Shown here: positions 11,797 through 22,686 of the stretch, piece after piece
Layout: each line of letters opens with the position of its first letter
Numbering within the stretch: the first letter of the stretch is position 1
From: a virus
Direction: 5' to 3' (one strand)
Virus record (IMG/VR): IMGVR_UViG_3300033182_000556
Coordinates: 1 to 23,507 of that record
Length of the DNA stretch: 23,507 nt
The notes under the pieces: model-generated
Database searches by the model: none
What the model was told of the DNA's origin: nothing
The model's input: the letters and a program-made list of their open reading frames with translations, nothing else
Translations under genes and position numbers: made by a program

Positions 11797-12314
11797 ATAT
11801 AGCAGAATTACTCAAGAAGGCATTAGCAGATGCCGATTGGACATCTGTATCCGAGGCATACTACATGCTTTCTGGTGAAAGAATGATAGAGCCTGGAGAA
11901 ACAGATGTTTTTAGTATGTTTACTAGCATCATGAATAAACTTGATGAAGTAATGGGTAGTAAACCGGAAAAAAAACCAAGAACACCAGCAAAGAAAAAAT
12001 CAAAACCCACAATAAAAAAGAGGACAGAGGTTGACAATGACTTCTCAACAAAGTCTAATAAGCCTTCTCGCAGCATTGCCGATAGAAAATTTGAAAACAA
12101 GTTTGAAGCAATGAGTGATGTAATTGCAGAGGCGGAGCGTGAAAGCGGATATGACAAAATTAATGATAATATAAAACCAACTAGTAGAAGTAGAAAATCA
12201 TATAAAACAAAGACGGTTAAGTGTATTGAATGTTTAAAATCATCTGATGTAAATCCAGTATTTGCAAAGGAAAACTACATATGTGATAATTGCCTTCAAA
12301 GAAGAGGTCGTTAA
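11793..12314 (+). CDS. Zinc-ribbon protein upstream of helicase, unknown
   Basis: A 173-residue protein coupled to the previous gene by ATGA. Residues 1-55 are helical; 57-77 are a Lys/Pro-rich linker (K-P-R-T-P-A-K-K-K-S-K-P); a helical part around 97-120 follows; and a C-terminal zinc ribbon has C144, C147, C164 and C167. The very basic linker and the zinc ribbon suggest nucleic-acid binding. Its location directly before the replicative helicase (TAATG overlap) would suit a loader or accessory factor, which is inference only. Confidence 0.62.
   Translation: MNIAELLKKALADADWTSVSEAYYMLSGERMIEPGETDVFSMFTSIMNKLDEVMGSKPEKKPRTPAKKKSKPTIKKRTEVDNDFSTKSNKPSRSIADRKFENKFEAMSDVIAEAERESGYDKINDNIKPTSRSRKSYKTKTVKCIECLKSSDVNPVFAKENYICDNCLQRRGR
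12031..12059 (+). promoter_or_regulatory. Possible sigma-70 promoter upstream of the helicase
   Basis: TTGACA at 12031-12036, a 17-base spacer, and TCTAAT at 12054-12059 (five of six). It is inside the preceding gene, about 250 bases before the helicase ATG. Confidence 0.4.
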
Positions 12315-14821
12315 TGTCTAAAATAGAGAGTAATCTTAAGAATGTTGCTTCTGAACGTGCAGTTCTTGCCGGTCTATTTCAGCATGGTCAAGAAAGCCTA
12401 ATTGAAGTAGAACTATTCATTAGCGAAGAAAGCTTTACTCTTGATGCAAATAAAGTCCTATATAAGTGTATTGTTCATGCTCTAAAGGATAAAGAGACTG
12501 CTGGATATGCAGATATTTTATCATCTGCTAAGAGTCTTAATCTTGATGAATATGTTGAGAGAAATGAAACTCTTAGGCATATCTCTGGGATTATGAACAC
12601 TCCAATTAATATAGACAATGTTGCAGAACATGCAAAAAAGCTAAAGAAACTTGAATTTGCACGTAAGGTTCAATCTCAGCTAAGAACTATCTATTCAGAT
12701 CTAAATGATGTTACTGGCGATGAGTCCATCAATGAAATCCTATCAGTTGCTGAATCTCCTATACAAGAGATTTGTCTTTCTTATATCAAAGAGGATGAAC
12801 TCACTCCTCAATTAATTGGCGATGATATTGATGAATATATAGAGCATTTGCAAAACAATGTCGGTAAATCAATTGGCATTACAACTGGATTAAAAGCATT
12901 CGATGAGGCTATTGGTGGAGGCTTAAGGAGGAAATGCGTTGATCTTATTGCCGCTAGACCCAAAGCACTTCGTCATGGATCTTTGGTGTACACAAAATAT
13001 GGACCCAAAAAAATTGAAGATATTCAGGCTGGAGATTCTGTGCTTCATCCAATACACGGATCAACAACAGTAACAGCCGTTTGGCCACACAGCAATATTG
13101 ATATCTACCGTATCTATTTTAAGGATGGTGATACCGTGGATTGCTGCGAAGATCACATATGGCATGTTGAAAAGGCTTATGGCGACAATGGCGAGGAACT
13201 AAAGACAACCAAAGAATTAATCAATGATTTAACATATGGACCTCAAGGAAGATACAAGTGGTTCGTGCCCCTACCAAAAATTGTAGAATTTAGAGAGCAG
13301 CATGTGCCTATTGATCCATACGCTATGGGTGTATTGCTTGGAGACGGTTCCGTAGCTAATAATACTTGTGTTTATCATACTATGGACAATGAAATTCATG
13401 AGTATATGACAACGTATGCTGGTTCGCTTGGAATGGAAGTAAAAATAGATAATCAGCAAGAAAATAACAAAGCTACTTCCTATAGAATAAATGGACTACA
13501 GGATAAATTACGAGAAACTGGCATTTTTGGACATAATTGCTATAGCAAATTCGTTCCAAAAGAATATATCTATAATACCGTAGAGGTTAGGCTTGCTGTT
13601 CTTGCCGGTCTTTTAGATACAGATGGAGACTGTACGATTGATAGTAGAAGCAATAATTCCAGAGTAAGATTCGGATCTGTATCATTACAGTTATGTAAGG
13701 ACGTTAAGGAAATAGTTCAGTCTTTGGGTGGTCTTTGCTCCATAAATAAAACACGAACAAAGTCCGAAGGTAAAGTGTTTGATTCTTATCGTTGTGAAGT
13801 TCGTTTACCAGAAGGAATCAATCCTTTTAGACTCTCACGAAAAGCTGAAAAATTTACTGGTCGTCAAATGGGACAACTAAAAAGAACAATTGTAAAAATT
13901 GAAAAAGTCGGACGGGATGACGCCAGATGTTTAACGCTGTCAGACAATGATGGTTTATTTATGACAGATAATTATATAGTTACTCATAATACGGGTAAAA
14001 GCTGCCTAGCAGATAATATCGCACTATATGTTGCTAGGACACATAATATTCCAGTTCTTATGCTTGACACAGAAATGAGCAAGCAAGATCACGTAAACCG
14101 TCTTCTTGCTAACATTAGCGAGACTGAGATTAATAATATTGCATCTGGCAAATTTTCAGATAGTGACCACATAAAGGATAAGATTATTGAAGGTGCTAAT
14201 TTACTAAAAGATATTCCTTATGATTACATTAGTATTGCCGGTAGACCTTTTGAAGAAACTCTGTCTATTGCCAAGCGTTGGCTTATCAAAAGGGTTGGGT
14301 ATGATGAAAATGGAGTTCTGAATGATTGCTTGATTATTTATGATTATTTGAAACTTATGTCTTCTACTAGTATCAATAATAATCTTGCAGAGTTTCAGGT
14401 GCTTGGCTTTCAGATTACAGCACTTCATAATTTCTGCGTTGAAAATGACTGCCCATGCCTGTCATTTGTTCAGCTTAATCGCGACGGCATTACCAAAGAA
14501 AGCACAGATGTTGTGAGCGGTTCAGATAGGCTTGTCTGGTTGTGTACAAGCTTTTCTATCTTTAAAGATAAAACAGAGGAAGAGAGATTGACAGACGGAA
14601 TGAATTCTGGTAATAAGAAGCTTATTCCCGTTGTGTCTAGGCACGGGCCAGGAATTGATGACGAGGGCTATATATGCCTTCAAATGGATGGTAAATATGC
14701 GAGAGTGAGAGAACTTGGTACTATTAGGAGTATGAAACGAAATGAGCACAACAATCAACAGGGATTCTCAGATCAAACAAACATTGATTCTGAAGGCGAA
14801 GTTGATGAAGAAGATTTTTGA
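12314..14821 (+). CDS. dnaB: DnaB-type replicative helicase with an intein in Walker A
   Basis: The precursor has 835 residues; removing the 342-residue intein (218-559) leaves 493, a normal size for a DnaB/gp41 helicase, which unwinds DNA at the fork. The N-terminal helical domain covers about 1-165. The Walker A motif is split: A-R-P-K (214-217) before the intein and T-G-K-S after it, so splicing restores A-R-P-K-T-G-K-S. Downstream, L-D-T-E-M, the Walker B-like L-I-I-Y-D-Y-L-K-L and a Q-L-N-R motif follow. The ATG at 12314 (TAATG) is preferred over an in-frame ATG at 12290 inside the upstream gene. Helicase activity must depend on splicing, because the P-loop is broken without it. The primase gene follows with a short overlap. 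Confidence 0.93.
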   Translation: MSKIESNLKNVASERAVLAGLFQHGQESLIEVELFISEESFTLDANKVLYKCIVHALKDKETAGYADILSSAKSLNLDEYVERNETLRHISGIMNTPINIDNVAEHAKKLKKLEFARKVQSQLRTIYSDLNDVTGDESINEILSVAESPIQEICLSYIKEDELTPQLIGDDIDEYIEHLQNNVGKSIGITTGLKAFDEAIGGGLRRKCVDLIAARPKALRHGSLVYTKYGPKKIEDIQAGDSVLHPIHGSTTVTAVWPHSNIDIYRIYFKDGDTVDCCEDHIWHVEKAYGDNGEELKTTKELINDLTYGPQGRYKWFVPLPKIVEFREQHVPIDPYAMGVLLGDGSVANNTCVYHTMDNEIHEYMTTYAGSLGMEVKIDNQQENNKATSYRINGLQDKLRETGIFGHNCYSKFVPKEYIYNTVEVRLAVLAGLLDTDGDCTIDSRSNNSRVRFGSVSLQLCKDVKEIVQSLGGLCSINKTRTKSEGKVFDSYRCEVRLPEGINPFRLSRKAEKFTGRQMGQLKRTIVKIEKVGRDDARCLTLSDNDGLFMTDNYIVTHNTGKSCLADNIALYVARTHNIPVLMLDTEMSKQDHVNRLLANISETEINNIASGKFSDSDHIKDKIIEGANLLKDIPYDYISIAGRPFEETLSIAKRWLIKRVGYDENGVLNDCLIIYDYLKLMSSTSINNNLAEFQVLGFQITALHNFCVENDCPCLSFVQLNRDGITKESTDVVSGSDRLVWLCTSFSIFKDKTEEERLTDGMNSGNKKLIPVVSRHGPGIDDEGYICLQMDGKYARVRELGTIRSMKRNEHNNQQGFSDQTNIDSEGEVDEEDF
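12965..13990 (+). mobile_element. Class 3-like intein with LAGLIDADG endonuclease
   Basis: An in-frame 342-residue insertion. Its first residue is Ala, not Cys or Ser (A-L-R-H-G-S-L-V), and it ends T-H-N followed by Thr (+1). The class 3 signature W-C-T is visible: W66 in D-H-I-W (block B), C322 in A-R-C-L-T-L (block F) and T340 in V-T-H-N (block G). In this class the block F Cys, rather than residue 1, is the first nucleophile. The endonuclease has two LAGLIDADG motifs: M-G-V-L-L-G-D-G at 121-128 and L-A-G-L-L-D-T-D-G at 213-221, with D127 and D220, so it looks active. The boundaries are fixed by restoring A-x-x-x-x-G-K-S in the helicase. Confidence 0.88.
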
Positions 14822-16613: not shown

Positions 16614-17630
16614 ATGATTATATGTTATCACAGAAGTTCATCATTATCTACGCTAGAAATGTGCGAAATGAAATACTTCTTTCAGTATGTACTTGGCATG
16701 AAGGATAAAACAAATAAGAAAGCCGTTTTAGGCACAGTCTTCCACAGGGTAATGCAAGTGCTTGCTGACAAGAAGATTGCACAATCAAAGGGTGAAGAAT
16801 TCCTAGAAAATGATGATCTAGAGAATTTAACTTTTGAACAATGTGACGACATTGAGCATGTTACTAAACTATGCTTTGATTACTATGTAGAGCATGAAGA
16901 AGATGTTGGCCTAAATAAAAAGGATTATGATACATGTGTGAAATGGGTAGAGAAAGCATTAGCATACAATAATGGAATGCTAGATCCAAGAAATCAGAAC
17001 GTACATGCGACGGAATTATTCTTTGATATTACTATCAAGAAGCCTTGGGCTGAGTATTCTTACTTCGTAAATGGAGAAGAATTTACTGGACATTTAGCCA
17101 TCAAGGGAACTATAGACTTGATTATCAAGGAGGATGATTCATACTTCCAGGTTCTTGATTATAAGTCTGGTAGAAGATTGAATTGGGCAACAGGAAGAGA
17201 AAAGACATACGAGGATCTTTGTTCCGATAAACAATTGCTTCTATATTTCTATGCTCTCAAAAATCTATATCCCGACCATGACTTTTACACGAGTATCTAC
17301 TACGTTAATGATGGCGGCATATTTGACATAGTATTTTCTGATGATGATTATGATAAAGCTGAAAAAATGCTTAAAAATAAGTTCGAATATATCCGATCAA
17401 TAGAATTGCCCAGTCTTCTATCTGAAGATCAATCTCATTGGAAATGCACTAAATTATGCAAGTTTTCTGAATTTCAGGCAGACAAAGAAAAAACGACTTG
17501 CAAATTTTTCCACGATATGATAAAATCAAAAGGGATGGACGAGGTAGTGTCCATGTATGCAGACCTGAATAAACTTGGTAAATATGGAAGCGGAGGCGGT
17601 AAAATAGAGGGCGTCAATAATAATGGATAA
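16614..17630 (+). CDS. RecB/Cas4-like PD-(D/E)XK exonuclease with possible Fe-S cluster
   Basis: A 338-residue nuclease. Motifs in order: C17 (E-M-C-E-M-K-Y-F-F), G-T-V-F-H (40-44), K-G-T-I-D-L-I-I with D168, V-L-D-Y-K-S-G with D182 and K184, and Q-L-L-L-Y (Q207, Y211). The C-terminal part has C278, C282 and C296. One Cys before the nuclease core and three after it is the layout of the 4Fe-4S cluster in Cas4 and AddB. Such nucleases degrade or trim DNA ends in recombination. No CRISPR array or cas1 is nearby, so replication or recombination use is more likely. The end overlaps the HNH gene by eight bases. Confidence 0.83.
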
Positions 17631-18336
17631 AAAACTTTGCAACATATGTAATAAATTGCTTCCAAAAACAAACAAATTTTTTTACCCTTGTAGAAATTAT
17701 TTTCAGTCAACATGTATTCAATGCAAAAATTCAATACAAATAGACATTAATACGAATAATACAATATTGAAAATATGCAATGGATGTAATAAGCAAATGC
17801 CAGCTACAATCGAGTTTTTCCATAAATCTAAACGTGAAAGAGATGGATTAAGATCTAAATGCAAAAAATGCAGATCTTTAGAGAAGAAAGAATATCATAT
17901 TAAAAATAGAGAATCTATATTGGAAAGAAATCGTAAATATGAATCTAGACAGGATATAAAAGAGAAAAAGAAAAAATATAGATCATCAGAAAAGTATCGT
18001 AATAAAAGAAATACACTTGAAAGGCAATTACGATCTAAAAACCCATCATATAAATTAGTTCAATGTTTAAGAAATTCATTCAATAGATATGTAAGAAAAA
18101 ATAACAGCACCTTTTTATATATTGGGATTGAAAAAGAAAGTTTTATGGAATATATTGAGTCTAAATTTCAACCAGGAATGTCATGGGAAAATTATGGACA
18201 ATGGCATATAGACCATATAAAGCCTCTTTCATCATTTAATTTTAATAACGAGGAAGAAATATATTTGGCGTGGAATTATACCAACCTGCAACCATTATGG
18301 GCAATTGATAATTTAATTAAAGGTAGAAAATGCTGA
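17623..18336 (+). CDS. Free-standing HNH endonuclease with zinc fingers (homing-type)
   Basis: A 237-residue protein. The first ~85 residues contain C-N-I-C, C-I-Q-C, C-N-G-C and C-K-K-C pairs, two zinc-ribbon units. A very Lys/Arg-rich middle follows. The C-terminus has the HNH core [10 protein letters not shown] (about 193-202) and [11 protein letters not shown] (about 221-231), a type common in phage homing endonucleases. The DNA is visibly more AT-rich than its neighbours, suggesting a later arrival. It overlaps the upstream gene by eight bases and the downstream polymerase gene by seven, so it sits precisely at the gene joint without breaking either. Confidence 0.88.
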
Positions 18337-20177
18337 GAAACCATAGTCACTATTCGTTGCTATCTTCAATTTCTCGATCAAAGCAAATAGTTGACGCCTG
18401 TAAAGAAGCAGGCTACACATCGGCGGGCATCACAGATATAGCCACTATTAGTGGTTGTGTTAATTTTATACAGCAGTGTGACAAGAAATCTATCAAGCCA
18501 ATTATTGGCTCTGAAATAATCCTAGATGATAACTCTAGAATCACCTTGGTTTGCAAGAATAATAACGCATGGACTCAGATGCTAAAAATTATTTCTATAG
18601 CAAACAGTCCAGACAATTACCAGGACACACCAAGAATAAGTTTTGATGAACTAATCAAGACTATTACCACTGACGATTTTGTGTGTGTTGATGGATATGT
18701 TGGGAGTAAGTTATTTTCTATCATCATGCCAAATATTGATTGTATATTTGACAATTTGGATGGGGACAGCACAAAGGATTGTCTTGCTAGCGATTATAAA
18801 GAACTAGCATCTAAGCATGTATCTACTATGCGTTCTATTTTCAAGAATTACTATCTTGAAGTAAATAAAACAGATCATGAATCATATCCTGTAACAAAGG
18901 TTGTGCATGATGTAATAATGGAGATTGATCCAAAAACAGAGATTTCTATACCAGATACATCTTCATATTATCCAGAAAGAAAAGATGCCGTAGACCATCG
19001 TGTATTGATTTGTACAAAACTGAAAACAACCATGAAAAAACTAGATCAAAAGATTATTGAAAAGAAAGATCTAGAATCTATTCGCTTCATCCGTAGCGGT
19101 AATTACTATATCAAAAACTCTGATTTTATAACAGAGCAGTATGGCGTAGCTATGTATGATAATCTTAAAAAACTAGAACAGAGTATTGATGATCTAGACA
19201 TTTTGTCTAAACCTAAACTACCAGCGTTTGAAACACCGGATGGTAGTTCAGAAGATGATTACCTAAAACAATTATGTCGTGATGGCTGGAGAAGGCTTAT
19301 CATGGATAAAATTCCCAAAGAAAAGCATGAAGTATATAAGGACAGAGTATTGAAAGAATTAGAAGTTATCCAGAAAGCCAATCTTGCTGGATATTTTCTA
19401 ATCGTTCAGGATTACGTTAATCACTTTAGAGATATGGGCTGTCTGGTTGGACCAGCTCGTGGTTCAGGTGGCGGATCGCTTGTGTGTTATCTTACTGGTA
19501 TTACACTCATTGATCCAATTGAATACAATCTACTCTTTGAGAGGTTTTACAATGAGGGACGAAATACAGCAGATCATGTTTCACTTCCAGATATTGATGT
19601 TGACTTTCCTCCAGACTATCGGGATCAAGTCATCCAATATCTCAAAGATAGGTATGATGAATCTAAAGTATGCCAAATGCTCACGTTTGGTAAACTCGCG
19701 GGACGCTCAATACTTAAAGAGGTTCTTAGAGTAAATGAATTCTGCGGTTTTGAACAAATGAATGAAATTACAGAAAAGATTCCAAACGAGGCTGCGATCT
19801 CAGACCTTCTTGAAGAAATGGATAATCCATCAGTTATTCGATGGACACTTGAAAACGACAAGAATGCTCTTATTGATTATTGTTGGCTTGATGATGATGG
19901 TAATCTACAGGGAGAATATGCTAAGATATTTGAGCAGGCAATGAGAATGGAAGGAATTTTTAAAACTCAGGGCAAACATGCCGCTGGCGTTGTGATTGCA
20001 TCAGACGACTTGCAAATGGTTTGTCCTATGGTAAAATCTTCCAGAAGTTCAGAGCAAATCGCTGGGATGGAAATGGGCGACCTTGAAGCTATCGGTTGTG
20101 TAAAATTTGATATTCTTGGAGTAAATCTATTGAAGAAAATATCCGAAACGATACATGAGGTAAATGATGAACTATAG
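18330..20177 (+). CDS. dnaE: DNA polymerase III alpha, N-terminal half (PHP, palm, thumb)
   Basis: A 615-residue protein matching the first half of bacterial DnaE. The PHP domain is at about 1-290 (H5 and H7 in N-H-S-H-Y-S, D36 in I-T-D-I, E62 in G-S-E-I), but the His of the usual T-D-H is I37 and a second His (D-V-H-Y in others) is lost, so PHP nuclease activity is doubtful. Palm: [10 protein letters not shown] at 374-383 and the catalytic pair D421/D423 in L-P-D-I-D-V-D-F. Thumb follows, then the third catalytic Asp D594 in V-K-F-D-I-L-G. The protein stops 21 residues later, at the palm-fingers joint of E. coli DnaE. The rest is encoded at 20834-22381. No intein fragment is visible at the end. 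Confidence 0.93.
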
Positions 20178-20850
20178 AGATTTTATTGTATATGACTTTG
20201 AAACGACTAGTGCTAATCCCAATACTACGCAGCCGGTACAGATTGCTGCAATTGCTATTCATGGCAGAAAGCTAGAGATTAAAGAAGGTTCTGAATTTCA
20301 ATCTCTTATAAAGCCAGTATTTTGTCCAAAAGAATGCAAGAAACTTAACGTAGATCCACTTGAAGCGGGTGCTGTTGCTGTTCATGGTAAAACAGAGGAA
20401 ATACTAGCAGATGCTCCATCAGCAGAATCAGTATGGAAAAACTTTACAGATTATGTCAATCAATATAATTTCAAGGGTGGCAATTGGGGTGCCCCAATTC
20501 AAGTAGGTTATAATATTCGTAGTTTTGATTCTATTATTGTCAATAGACTTTGCATGGAAAAACCTTATAAATTTGGGCCAGCCGATGATAAACGCGGAGA
20601 ACAAAACCTGTTTAATAGACTTCATATGATTGACCTACTAGACTTTATGTTTGTTTTCTTTGAAAATAATAAAGAAGTTAACTCACTATCTGCTGATAAT
20701 CTAGTCAGAGGTTATATGGGTTATTCTGCTGGAAAAGCACACGATGCTATGTCTGACGTTATTATGACTGCTGAATTGTTTTGTAGGACCATGAGAATGC
20801 TACGCACAACTGCTAGTAGAAAGAATTTTAAAAATGCATTCAAAAATTGA
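20164..20850 (+). CDS. DnaQ-like 3'-5' exonuclease lying between the dnaE halves
   Basis: A 228-residue DEDDh exonuclease. Exo I: D11 and E13 in Y-D-F-E-T. Exo II: D122 in Y-N-I-R-S-F-D-S. Exo III: H193 and D198 in K-A-H-D-A-M-S-D-V. All five catalytic residues are present, so it should be active and probably supplies proofreading to the polymerase around it. GAGG at 20157-20160 precedes ATG codons at 20164 and 20167; the first overlaps the upstream dnaE half by 14 bases. The 3' end overlaps the second half by 17 bases. The three genes are in three different frames, so they make separate proteins unless frameshifting occurs. It resembles exonuclease I/DnaQ-type proteins in having extra loops between motifs. 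Confidence 0.9.
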   Translation: MMNYRDFIVYDFETTSANPNTTQPVQIAAIAIHGRKLEIKEGSEFQSLIKPVFCPKECKKLNVDPLEAGAVAVHGKTEEILADAPSAESVWKNFTDYVNQYNFKGGNWGAPIQVGYNIRSFDSIIVNRLCMEKPYKFGPADDKRGEQNLFNRLHMIDLLDFMFVFFENNKEVNSLSADNLVRGYMGYSAGKAHDAMSDVIMTAELFCRTMRMLRTTASRKNFKNAFKN

Positions 20851-22381
20851 TATCACTAATGTTCCAGAAAATGATGCCGATATATGGAAGATGATTGGAG
20901 AGGGCAGAGTTAAGGGTTGCTTTCAGATTGAAAGTCATCTTGGTAAAACATGGTGTCACAAATTAAAGCCAGAAAACATGACTGAGCTTGCAGCCCTTAT
21001 TAGTATTATTCGTCCTGGTACTCTTAAAGCTATTGTAGATGGAAAATCTATGACTCAACACTTCGTTGATAGAAAGCATGGTAAGGAAGATATTCCAAGT
21101 CTTCATCCTAGTATTGACGGCTTGCTTCAGGAAACATATGGAGTCATTGTCTACCAGGAACAGGCAATGGAAATCTCCGTTAGAATGGCTGGATTTGATC
21201 TTAAAGAAGCGGACAATCTTCGTAAGGCTATTGGTAAGAAGAAGGCCGATCTTATGAAAGAAGTCCGTGGTAAATTCCTAGATGGATGCAAAAAGAATTA
21301 CATAGATGAGGAAGTTGCAGAAGAAATCTTTGATATGATCGAAAAGTCTGCACGATATTCATTCAACAAGTCTCACGCCGTTGCATATGCTAAGATGGCA
21401 TACTGGTCGGCATGGACAAAGTATCATTATCCAGAGAAGTTTTTCAAGCATTGGCTGAGGAACGCAGATGAGAAGATAGACCCGGATATTGAAAAAAGAC
21501 AACTCATAATGGCCGCTAAGGCCGAAGATATCGAAGTGCGTGGACCAAACATTAACGTGCTAAAAGAAAACTTTTCATGGCAAGACAATGCTATATACTT
21601 TGGCATTTGTAATGTCAAGAATGTTGGCAAAGCACACCTAACTCAACTAATAGATGGGTTCAAAAGTCTTAAAGGGGAAAGAACGTGGCCTAATATTCTT
21701 GTTAATATTCTACCATCTGTAAATAAAAGGGCTGTAGAAAATCTTATCAAGACCGGTGCATTTACTGGATTAGGGAAAACTAGATCTGCAATGCTTCATG
21801 AATATCATTGCTATTTAGATCTTACAAAAAAAGAAATGCAGTCTATAAAAGAAAACATCAACATCACAGATTCGATAGCCGATATTGTACAAAGGTTTTT
21901 GTCCTATGGTCTAAAGAAAAGTGGGGGATTTATTTCAACAAAAGGAAGGCTAGACAAAGTAAATAACATACTTACTAGGATTAATAATCCTGGTAGGGAT
22001 TTGTCAGATAACGGCATGGTGTACGCTAAAACAGAGGAAAAGCTTTTAGGCTATTCAATTAATCATTCCGAGCTAAATGCATGTTCAGAAGCGTCTAATG
22101 CAAATACTACATGCAAGCAGGTAAATGATGGAAAGACAGATGCATCTGTTCTGGCAGTAGTGATTAAAAGACTTAGAGAATATAAAACTAAGAACGGCGA
22201 TATGATGGCTTTCCTATCAGTTGAAGATGAATCTGGAGAACTTGAAAATATTGTAGTTTTTCCAGACATCTACGAGCAAAACAAAGATATAATATATGAG
22301 CAGGCTACTGTCCTTATTTCTGGAGAGATACAGGATAAGCAACGAAACTCGTTCATTGTTGATAAGATTTTTTTGATATAG
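20834..22381 (+). CDS. dnaE: DNA polymerase III alpha, C-terminal half (fingers to OB fold)
   Basis: A 515-residue protein that starts where bacterial DnaE enters its fingers domain: V-K-G-C-F-Q-I-E-S at 26-34 matches the F-Q-L-E-S region, then I-R-P-G-T-L (59-64), V-Y-Q-E-Q-A-M (106-112), A-I-G-K-K-K (132-137) and N-K-S-H-A-V-A-Y (178-185). A helix-hairpin-helix-like segment lies at about 290-320, E-K-L-L-G-Y-S near 402-408 and an OB fold at about 437-515. It lacks the catalytic Asp residues, which are all in the upstream half, so it must pair with that protein. The ATG at 20834 overlaps the exonuclease gene by 17 bases, with no clear Shine-Dalgarno, suggesting coupled translation. Together the halves total 1130 residues, near full-length DnaE. 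Confidence 0.93.
   Translation: MHSKIDITNVPENDADIWKMIGEGRVKGCFQIESHLGKTWCHKLKPENMTELAALISIIRPGTLKAIVDGKSMTQHFVDRKHGKEDIPSLHPSIDGLLQETYGVIVYQEQAMEISVRMAGFDLKEADNLRKAIGKKKADLMKEVRGKFLDGCKKNYIDEEVAEEIFDMIEKSARYSFNKSHAVAYAKMAYWSAWTKYHYPEKFFKHWLRNADEKIDPDIEKRQLIMAAKAEDIEVRGPNINVLKENFSWQDNAIYFGICNVKNVGKAHLTQLIDGFKSLKGERTWPNILVNILPSVNKRAVENLIKTGAFTGLGKTRSAMLHEYHCYLDLTKKEMQSIKENINITDSIADIVQRFLSYGLKKSGGFISTKGRLDKVNNILTRINNPGRDLSDNGMVYAKTEEKLLGYSINHSELNACSEASNANTTCKQVNDGKTDASVLAVVIKRLREYKTKNGDMMAFLSVEDESGELENIVVFPDIYEQNKDIIYEQATVLISGEIQDKQRNSFIVDKIFLI
21973..21993 (+). repeat. Short hairpin inside the C-terminal dnaE half
   Basis: ACTAGGATT and AATCCTGGT pair over nine positions with one wobble and a three-base loop. 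It lies in coding sequence (R-I-N-N-P-G) with no T-run, so its significance is unclear. Confidence 0.3.
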
Positions 22382-22389
22382 GATTGAAT

Positions 22390-22686
22390 ATGAATCATTG
22401 CTCGTTTTTAGGAAAATTGGTATCTAAAGAATTTAGCGATTTAACAGGTATTGAAAAGATTGATTTAATATTACATGTCGAAAATAAACGAAAGGTAAAA
22501 AAAGACATCAAAAAGATGGATTATGAGCGTCTGAACTTTGAAGCATGGGGCACAGCCGCTATAAGTATAGAAAATAACTTGACAGTTGACGATCACATGC
22601 TTATAATTGATTCTACGGCAAGGGCAGACAATGGAGATGTTCGCTTTAGGATTAACGAGTTTAAGATAATCAAAAAAGGAAATTGA
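22390..22686 (+). CDS. SSB-like OB-fold protein
   Basis: A 98-residue protein. The pattern F-L-G-K-L-V near the N-terminus, I-D-L-I-L-H-V-E-N, F-E-A-W-G-T-A-A near the middle and F-R-I-N-E-F-K-I at the end fits a small single-stranded DNA-binding OB fold; aromatic and basic residues alternate as in SSB. It lacks the long acidic tail of bacterial SSB, so partner binding must differ. The ATG at 22390 is favoured by AGGA six bases upstream; a TTG at 22384 is an alternative. It follows the polymerase gene closely, supporting a fork role. A perfect promoter for the next gene lies within it. Confidence 0.7.
   Translation: MNHCSFLGKLVSKEFSDLTGIEKIDLILHVENKRKVKKDIKKMDYERLNFEAWGTAAISIENNLTVDDHMLIIDSTARADNGDVRFRINEFKIIKKGN
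22579..22607 (+). promoter_or_regulatory. Perfect-consensus sigma-70 promoter upstream of the sigma gene
   Basis: TTGACA at 22579-22584, exactly 17 bases, then TATAAT at 22602-22607. It lies within the SSB-like coding region, about 80 bases before the sigma-factor ATG at 22688. Confidence 0.8.

Follow-up and report, generated by a model that had tools for sequence, protein, structure and literature searches.

A C-family DNA polymerase encoded in two halves around an exonuclease gene, and probably reassembled without splicing, in a clade of uncultured phages

The stretch of DNA analysed here (the window) is the complete IMG/VR record IMGVR_UViG_3300033182_000556, a fragment of 23,507 bases from a larger virus genome, in which the alpha subunit of a C-family (Pol III) DNA polymerase is encoded by two genes, dnaE-N and dnaE-C, with a gene for a DnaQ-like DEDDh exonuclease, here called X, between them (Table 1). 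This is probably a two-gene replicative polymerase of the C family whose halves reassemble non-covalently and whose proofreader is encoded in the gap. The basis of this reading is genetic and predicted-structural, and from it we infer that the halves assemble, that the enzyme is active and what X does. The three genes occupy one forward frame each and overlap by 14 and 17 bases, exactly as an earlier note on the sequence of the window had described.

The division of the enzyme was defined by domain, profile and structure comparison. Pfam assigns PHP and PF07733 to dnaE-N and the PF17657 fingers, HHH_6 and OB domains to dnaE-C; the OB match scored 23.2 bits, under the 27-bit cut-off, and this assignment is backed by structure. 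Taken together, the two halves carry in order PHP, the palm with three catalytic Asp residues, thumb, fingers, HhH and OB. The NCBIfam profile TIGR00594 (1022 positions) is divided between them, with dnaE-N covering positions 4–572 and dnaE-C positions 579–1021, so that no residues are missing between the halves. The catalytic Asp residues proposed in the earlier note, D421, D423 and D594, lie where it placed them and are invariant in 74 diverse homologues. The catalytic core is spread over two open reading frames (ORFs) in the window, as it is in every split relative, and does not lie on one polypeptide. The description of the two halves as a whole DnaE holds up to the OB fold but not beyond it, as the tau-binding domain found at the C-terminus of the E. 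coli alpha subunit is absent.

Single chains were modelled with AlphaFold2, fed with alignments of relatives, and the predicted fold of either half alone is of high confidence, with a predicted local distance difference test score (pLDDT) of 91.5 and a predicted template modelling score (pTM) of 0.88 for dnaE-N, and a pLDDT of 90.7 and pTM of 0.81 for dnaE-C. Residues 1–615 of dnaE-N align with residues 8–576 of E. coli Pol III alpha (2hnh) with Z 36.1 and a root mean square deviation (rmsd) of 3.8 over 552 residues, and residues 1–515 of dnaE-C align with residues 573–1073 (5fku_A) with Z 21.6 and rmsd 8.2 over 449 residues; residues 1–336 of dnaE-C align with residues 574–911 (4jom) with Z 21.7 and rmsd 3.6. 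These alignments place the cut in the linker joining the last palm helix to the fingers, and the split at the palm-fingers joint is real. The linker is variable in length in fused polymerases, with 9 to 21 residues falling outside the profiles. In a sister group (L061, L094, L119, L185 and L285) dnaE-C opens with some 30 additional residues, not present in the window, that carry a conserved C-G-C motif (like FxCGCxF) and may have been acquired after the split for docking or metal binding.

Scans of IMG/VR, with loci classified by profile hidden Markov models, yielded several hundred loci from many metagenomes. The dnaE-exonuclease-dnaE order of the window recurs in these relatives: X lies between dnaE-N and dnaE-C in all 335 split loci of the clade, being full-length in 331, and the gene order is constant in every split relative found. 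One contig can yield several loci, so the safer counts are those of distinct X proteins (185) and of their clusters at 90% identity (143). Identity to the window falls as low as 42% for dnaE-N, 38% for dnaE-C and 32% for X. In 12 close pairs the ratio of non-synonymous to synonymous substitution rates (dN/dS) is mostly 0.01–0.09 in the three genes and reaches 0.17–0.33 only for single genes of two pairs, which indicates that all three are under purifying selection. The window is a metagenome contig, and an assembly error or chance ORFs could be suspected; the probability of this is negligible, since recurrence in hundreds of loci with so many distinct X proteins, together with the low dN/dS, excludes chance, assembly error and pseudogenes. 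Among 50,697 phage records the best match to the N half of DnaE has about 30% identity and there is no match to the window at the DNA level, so by these comparisons the clade is without a cultured member in that collection; scans of host genome contigs with X and dnaE-N likewise gave no relative.

Shine-Dalgarno-like cores precede 57% of dnaE-N, 66% of X and 54% of dnaE-C starts, against 13% at single random ATGs, a rough comparison in which alternative starts were allowed. The end of dnaE-N (HEVNDEL) and the start of dnaE-C (MHSKIDIT) both lie directly in DnaE homology, and the ends of both halves run straight out of that homology with no intein pieces to be seen at the palm-fingers joint, in agreement with the earlier note. 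X overlaps both halves, which leaves no room for an intron in the window, and a comparison of the window and 12 relatives with Rfam gave nothing, no known ribozyme or intron included. In many relatives gaps, small genes or endonuclease genes separate dnaE-N, X and dnaE-C; the overlaps are therefore not essential, and no single route, whether by frameshifting or by splicing, can serve them all. It is thus very improbable that the halves are covalently joined, be it through programmed frameshifting, an intein or an intron that escaped recognition: the overlaps in the window would allow frameshifting, and in relatives dnaE bears inteins and split inteins at other places, but X would then need to be skipped or translated through, and the intein-free ends, the silence of Rfam and the non-overlapping genes or extra ORFs of relatives all speak against it.

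The inserted sequences of the relatives are of several kinds. In two subclades the gap between dnaE-N and X is filled by two unrelated, conserved families of small proteins of about 60–80 residues (42 and 25 survey members; for example L114 6835–7047 and L141 4080–4331), neither with a Pfam or PHROG match, and a relative of the second family also adjoins X in L107. An Endonuclease VII-like gene stands at the junction of X and dnaE-C in L022 (8499–8918), overlapping both, and such genes likewise lie between X and dnaE-C in L160 and L192. Split inteins break dnaE within the fingers in L057 (8518–11343) and L107 (4986–9672), at a site reading SFN(K/R)-CLDPTT ... SN-SH, with a homing-endonuclease-like gene between; this site lies close to that of the cyanobacterial DnaE intein, at a distance of a few residues, and is independent of the palm-fingers split, so that in L057 the two breaks together leave the polymerase in three pieces. 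L028 (8628–10154) carries an HNH-containing intein in the dnaE-C fingers (RPG-C ... HN-C), and in L136 (1326–4177) dnaE-N is broken in the palm, just before the catalytic PDIDVDF, by a LAGLIDADG-like ORF that may lie in an undetected intron. Protein splicing thus occurs in this polymerase family, though not visibly at the palm-fingers joint.

Unsplit relatives exist both as outgroups and as a lineage within the clade. In the outgroups L374 and L378 (177.6-kb contig) dnaE is unsplit, and X was looked for in both records and found in neither. The neighbours of L374 match the order in the window, namely primase, deoxynucleoside monophosphate kinase, PD-(D/E)XK nuclease, dnaE, single-stranded DNA-binding protein (SSB) and sigma factor. 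Both outgroups are sister to the split clade in the tree with supports of 99–100; it was thus in the clade's ancestor that dnaE was cut and X placed in the cut. In contigs L107/L230 and L229/L306, on the other hand, palm and fingers lie within one ORF with X directly upstream, and dnaE of L229 is open over all 1142 codons. In the combined trees this lineage falls within the split clade, and a position outside the clade was rejected by the approximately unbiased test (p-AU 0.007; 0.035 with another row set); the tree of dnaE-N only placed L107 weakly. The nesting and these tests speak against the fused state as ancestral and favour an apparent natural re-fusion of the palm-fingers joint. The idea in the earlier note that the three parts are encoded in assembly order is not supported: in this lineage X stands upstream of a continuous dnaE, and the order is thus not essential.

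The intervening gene encodes a member of the DEDDh superfamily (PF00929, RNase_T, E 1e-16) and not a homing endonuclease. Its catalytic set D11, E13, D122, H193 and D198 is invariant in 40 diverse homologues, and the exonuclease is intact, as the earlier note says, and functional-looking. X falls under the curated DnaQ cut-offs (23.8 versus 222.7 bits for TIGR01406, 25.2 versus 71.5 for TIGR00573) and is classed by these NCBIfam cut-offs as a DEDDh enzyme that is not an epsilon orthologue. Its C-terminal tail is conserved as F-x-x-(A/S)-F, which might, speculatively, serve as a docking or clamp motif. The PHP proofreading active site is a nine-residue motif, HHDHEH[C/H]DH (PMC12926913); in an alignment judged by eye this motif seems intact in L138, L140, L061 and L107 and disrupted in L142, L153, L104 and the group of the window. 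X probably became the main proofreader while the PHP site was lost repeatedly, and a proofreading role for X fits this repeated loss, in the window as elsewhere in the clade.

The survey of possible competing polymerases covered 15 relatives' contigs of 100–231 kb, which may be incomplete. Each of the 15 has one PF07733 polymerase, and PolA, PolB and any second polymerase were looked for in them and not found; PF17657 is single-copy in the contigs tested, intein-divided copies aside. PF00712 detected no beta clamp in 14 contigs. In the window, Pfam and PHROG identify primase, helicase and ribonucleotide reductase genes near the split dnaE. The conserved active sites, these neighbours and the single polymerase make it likely that the split enzyme is the replicative polymerase of the clade.

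Several points weigh against a reassembled, proofread replicase. The Shine-Dalgarno-like signal ahead of dnaE-C is weak in the window; X is without an extension resembling the tail by which E. coli epsilon binds alpha, and would have to dock in another way; and all contigs come from uncultured phages and are possibly incomplete, which leaves room for a further polymerase or a host subunit. The missing tail, with the failure of X to reach the epsilon cut-offs, also fits the view that X is unrelated, landed in the cut by chance and was kept for repair or degradation of host DNA. We consider this unlikely, as X adjoins dnaE throughout the clade, even where dnaE is continuous, its DEDDh residues are invariant and the PHP active site has been lost more than once. 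Incomplete contigs, and the absence of a clamp match, would likewise suit a split polymerase that is decaying or non-replicative, with another phage or host enzyme copying the genome; this is improbable, given the low dN/dS in both halves, the invariant active site, the nearby replication genes and the lack of PolA, PolB or a second C-family enzyme in the contigs surveyed.

For the preferred reading, a polymerase reassembled from two gene products, the following course of events would account for the observations. In the ancestor of this large clade of uncultured phages dnaE was cut in the variable palm-fingers linker and a DnaQ-like exonuclease gene came into the cut, as sequence, synteny and phylogeny show. 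From the observed frames, one message would presumably be transcribed, and each of its three start codons would give a protein of its own. The dnaE-N protein, with the three catalytic Asp residues, and the dnaE-C protein would bind non-covalently and rebuild the active site, and X would play the part of E. coli epsilon in 3'-5' proofreading. Later palm and fingers would have become continuous again in a nested lineage, with X directly upstream, a step favoured by the tree tests. More tentatively, and with somewhat less than even confidence, we propose a three-protein replicative polymerase in which palm and fingers have been permanently separate through a deep radiation with one re-fused lineage, and in which X, encoded between them, docks at or near their interface.

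The arrangement resembles several known systems in part. Group 2.2 jumbo phages have a split minimal Pol III alpha, with N- and C-terminal proteins that are presumed to form the enzyme together (Iyer et al. 2021, PMC7824862), and the likeness is that of a phage C-family polymerase made as two proteins. In those phages, however, the catalytic modules are minimal and without PHP, the genes are distant, PolB is present beside them and no exonuclease between them is mentioned (PMC7824862), whereas here the halves run from PHP to OB in overlapping adjacent genes with X between, and PolA and PolB were not found. The belief in the earlier note that the arrangement had not been described stands for the N-exonuclease-C order, of which no description was found in the literature searched, preprints and subscription papers being mostly outside its reach, but not for split phage Pol III alpha as such, which is known. 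In Aeromonas phages 25 and 44RR PolB is split as gp43A/gp43B, and a functional enzyme is reported for the mobE-split nrdA of Aeh1 (both reviewed in PMC2988022). These too are phage enzymes made as separate polypeptides, but they belong to other enzyme families, and what separates their parts is a homing endonuclease or untranslated sequence. The E. coli Pol III core likewise combines a C-family polymerase with a separate DEDDh proofreader, and PHP is not intact in the window either, but alpha is a single chain there, dnaQ is unlinked and epsilon has the alpha-binding tail that X does not. Cyanobacterial DnaE is encoded by two genes cut inside the fingers before CFNKSH, and its halves are ligated by a split intein; both are two-gene C-family polymerases, but the cut described here is about 175 residues earlier and without an intein. 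Fractured genes of environmental phages, with split-intein halves and an interposed homing endonuclease, were reportedly found by Dassa et al. in 2009. These share with the present locus a nuclease gene between halves and an origin in environmental phages, but intein pieces and a homing endonuclease of this type are not at the palm-fingers joint and both occur at the second break of L057 and L107.

A cut at the same joint was found in an isolate, Rossellomorea phage phiT1 (PV767480; L227 4929–8211), in which Pol III alpha is divided into gp20 and gp18. Identity is about 29%, an ORF of 49 residues and no exonuclease lies between the halves, and phiT1 is outside the clade, so that its split is apparently independent. 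Three other apparently broken phage polymerases were rejected, none being cut at the palm-fingers joint: that of MVC_VPHSA1 is in many pieces, that of Jayan is cut in the palm, and that of BpsS-140 is broken earlier in the N half.

Table 1. Positions of the split polymerase genes, their motifs and the adjoining genes in the window
Feature	Position	Strand	Basis
dnaE-N, PHP/palm/thumb half of C-family polymerase	18330..20177	+	615 aa; Pfam PF02811 + PF07733; E. coli Pol III alpha match
Catalytic D421 + D423, motif PDIDVDF	19590..19598	+	conservation among homologues
Catalytic D594, motif VKFDILG	20109..20111	+	conservation among homologues
GAGG, Shine-Dalgarno-like core ahead of X	20157..20160	+	sequence; enrichment across relatives
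X, DnaQ-like DEDDh 3'-5' exonuclease	20164..20850	+	228 aa; PF00929; PHROG_192 DNA polymerase exonuclease subunit; invariant catalytic residues
dnaE-C, fingers/HhH/OB half	20834..22381	+	515 aa; PF17657, PF14579; E. coli Pol III alpha match
Endonuclease VII/HNH-like gene, overlaps dnaE-N start by 7 bases	17623..18336	+	PHROG_1035
SSB-like ORF directly 3' of dnaE-C	22384..22686	+	neighbour kept in relatives

The Endonuclease VII/HNH-like gene upstream of dnaE-N is shared with a single relative only (L004/L028), which marks it as mobile and outside the enzyme. The SSB label of the downstream ORF reflects position and resemblance only, Pfam and PHROG having given no family. Further upstream, at 12290–14821, a DnaB-like helicase holds a LAGLIDADG intein inside its Walker A loop. 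This intein starts with ALRHGS, without a Cys or Ser nucleophile, and ends HN-T; its W291, C547 and +1 Thr resemble the WCT motif of class 3 inteins. A search for the T4 Gp23 capsid protein gave no match anywhere, and its controls were equally silent.

If the preferred reading is true, a replicative polymerase cut through its catalytic core would still serve, without splicing, as apparently the only replicase of a widespread phage group. Syntenic unsplit outgroups and a re-fused lineage would allow tests, within one enzyme, of why genes are split and at what cost, phiT1 would be a practical cultured laboratory model for the palm-fingers split, and the enzyme would be a natural split polymerase to build on. 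Annotation pipelines may label such halves as fragments or pseudogenes. In this clade a separate exonuclease seems to replace proofreading by the PHP domain.

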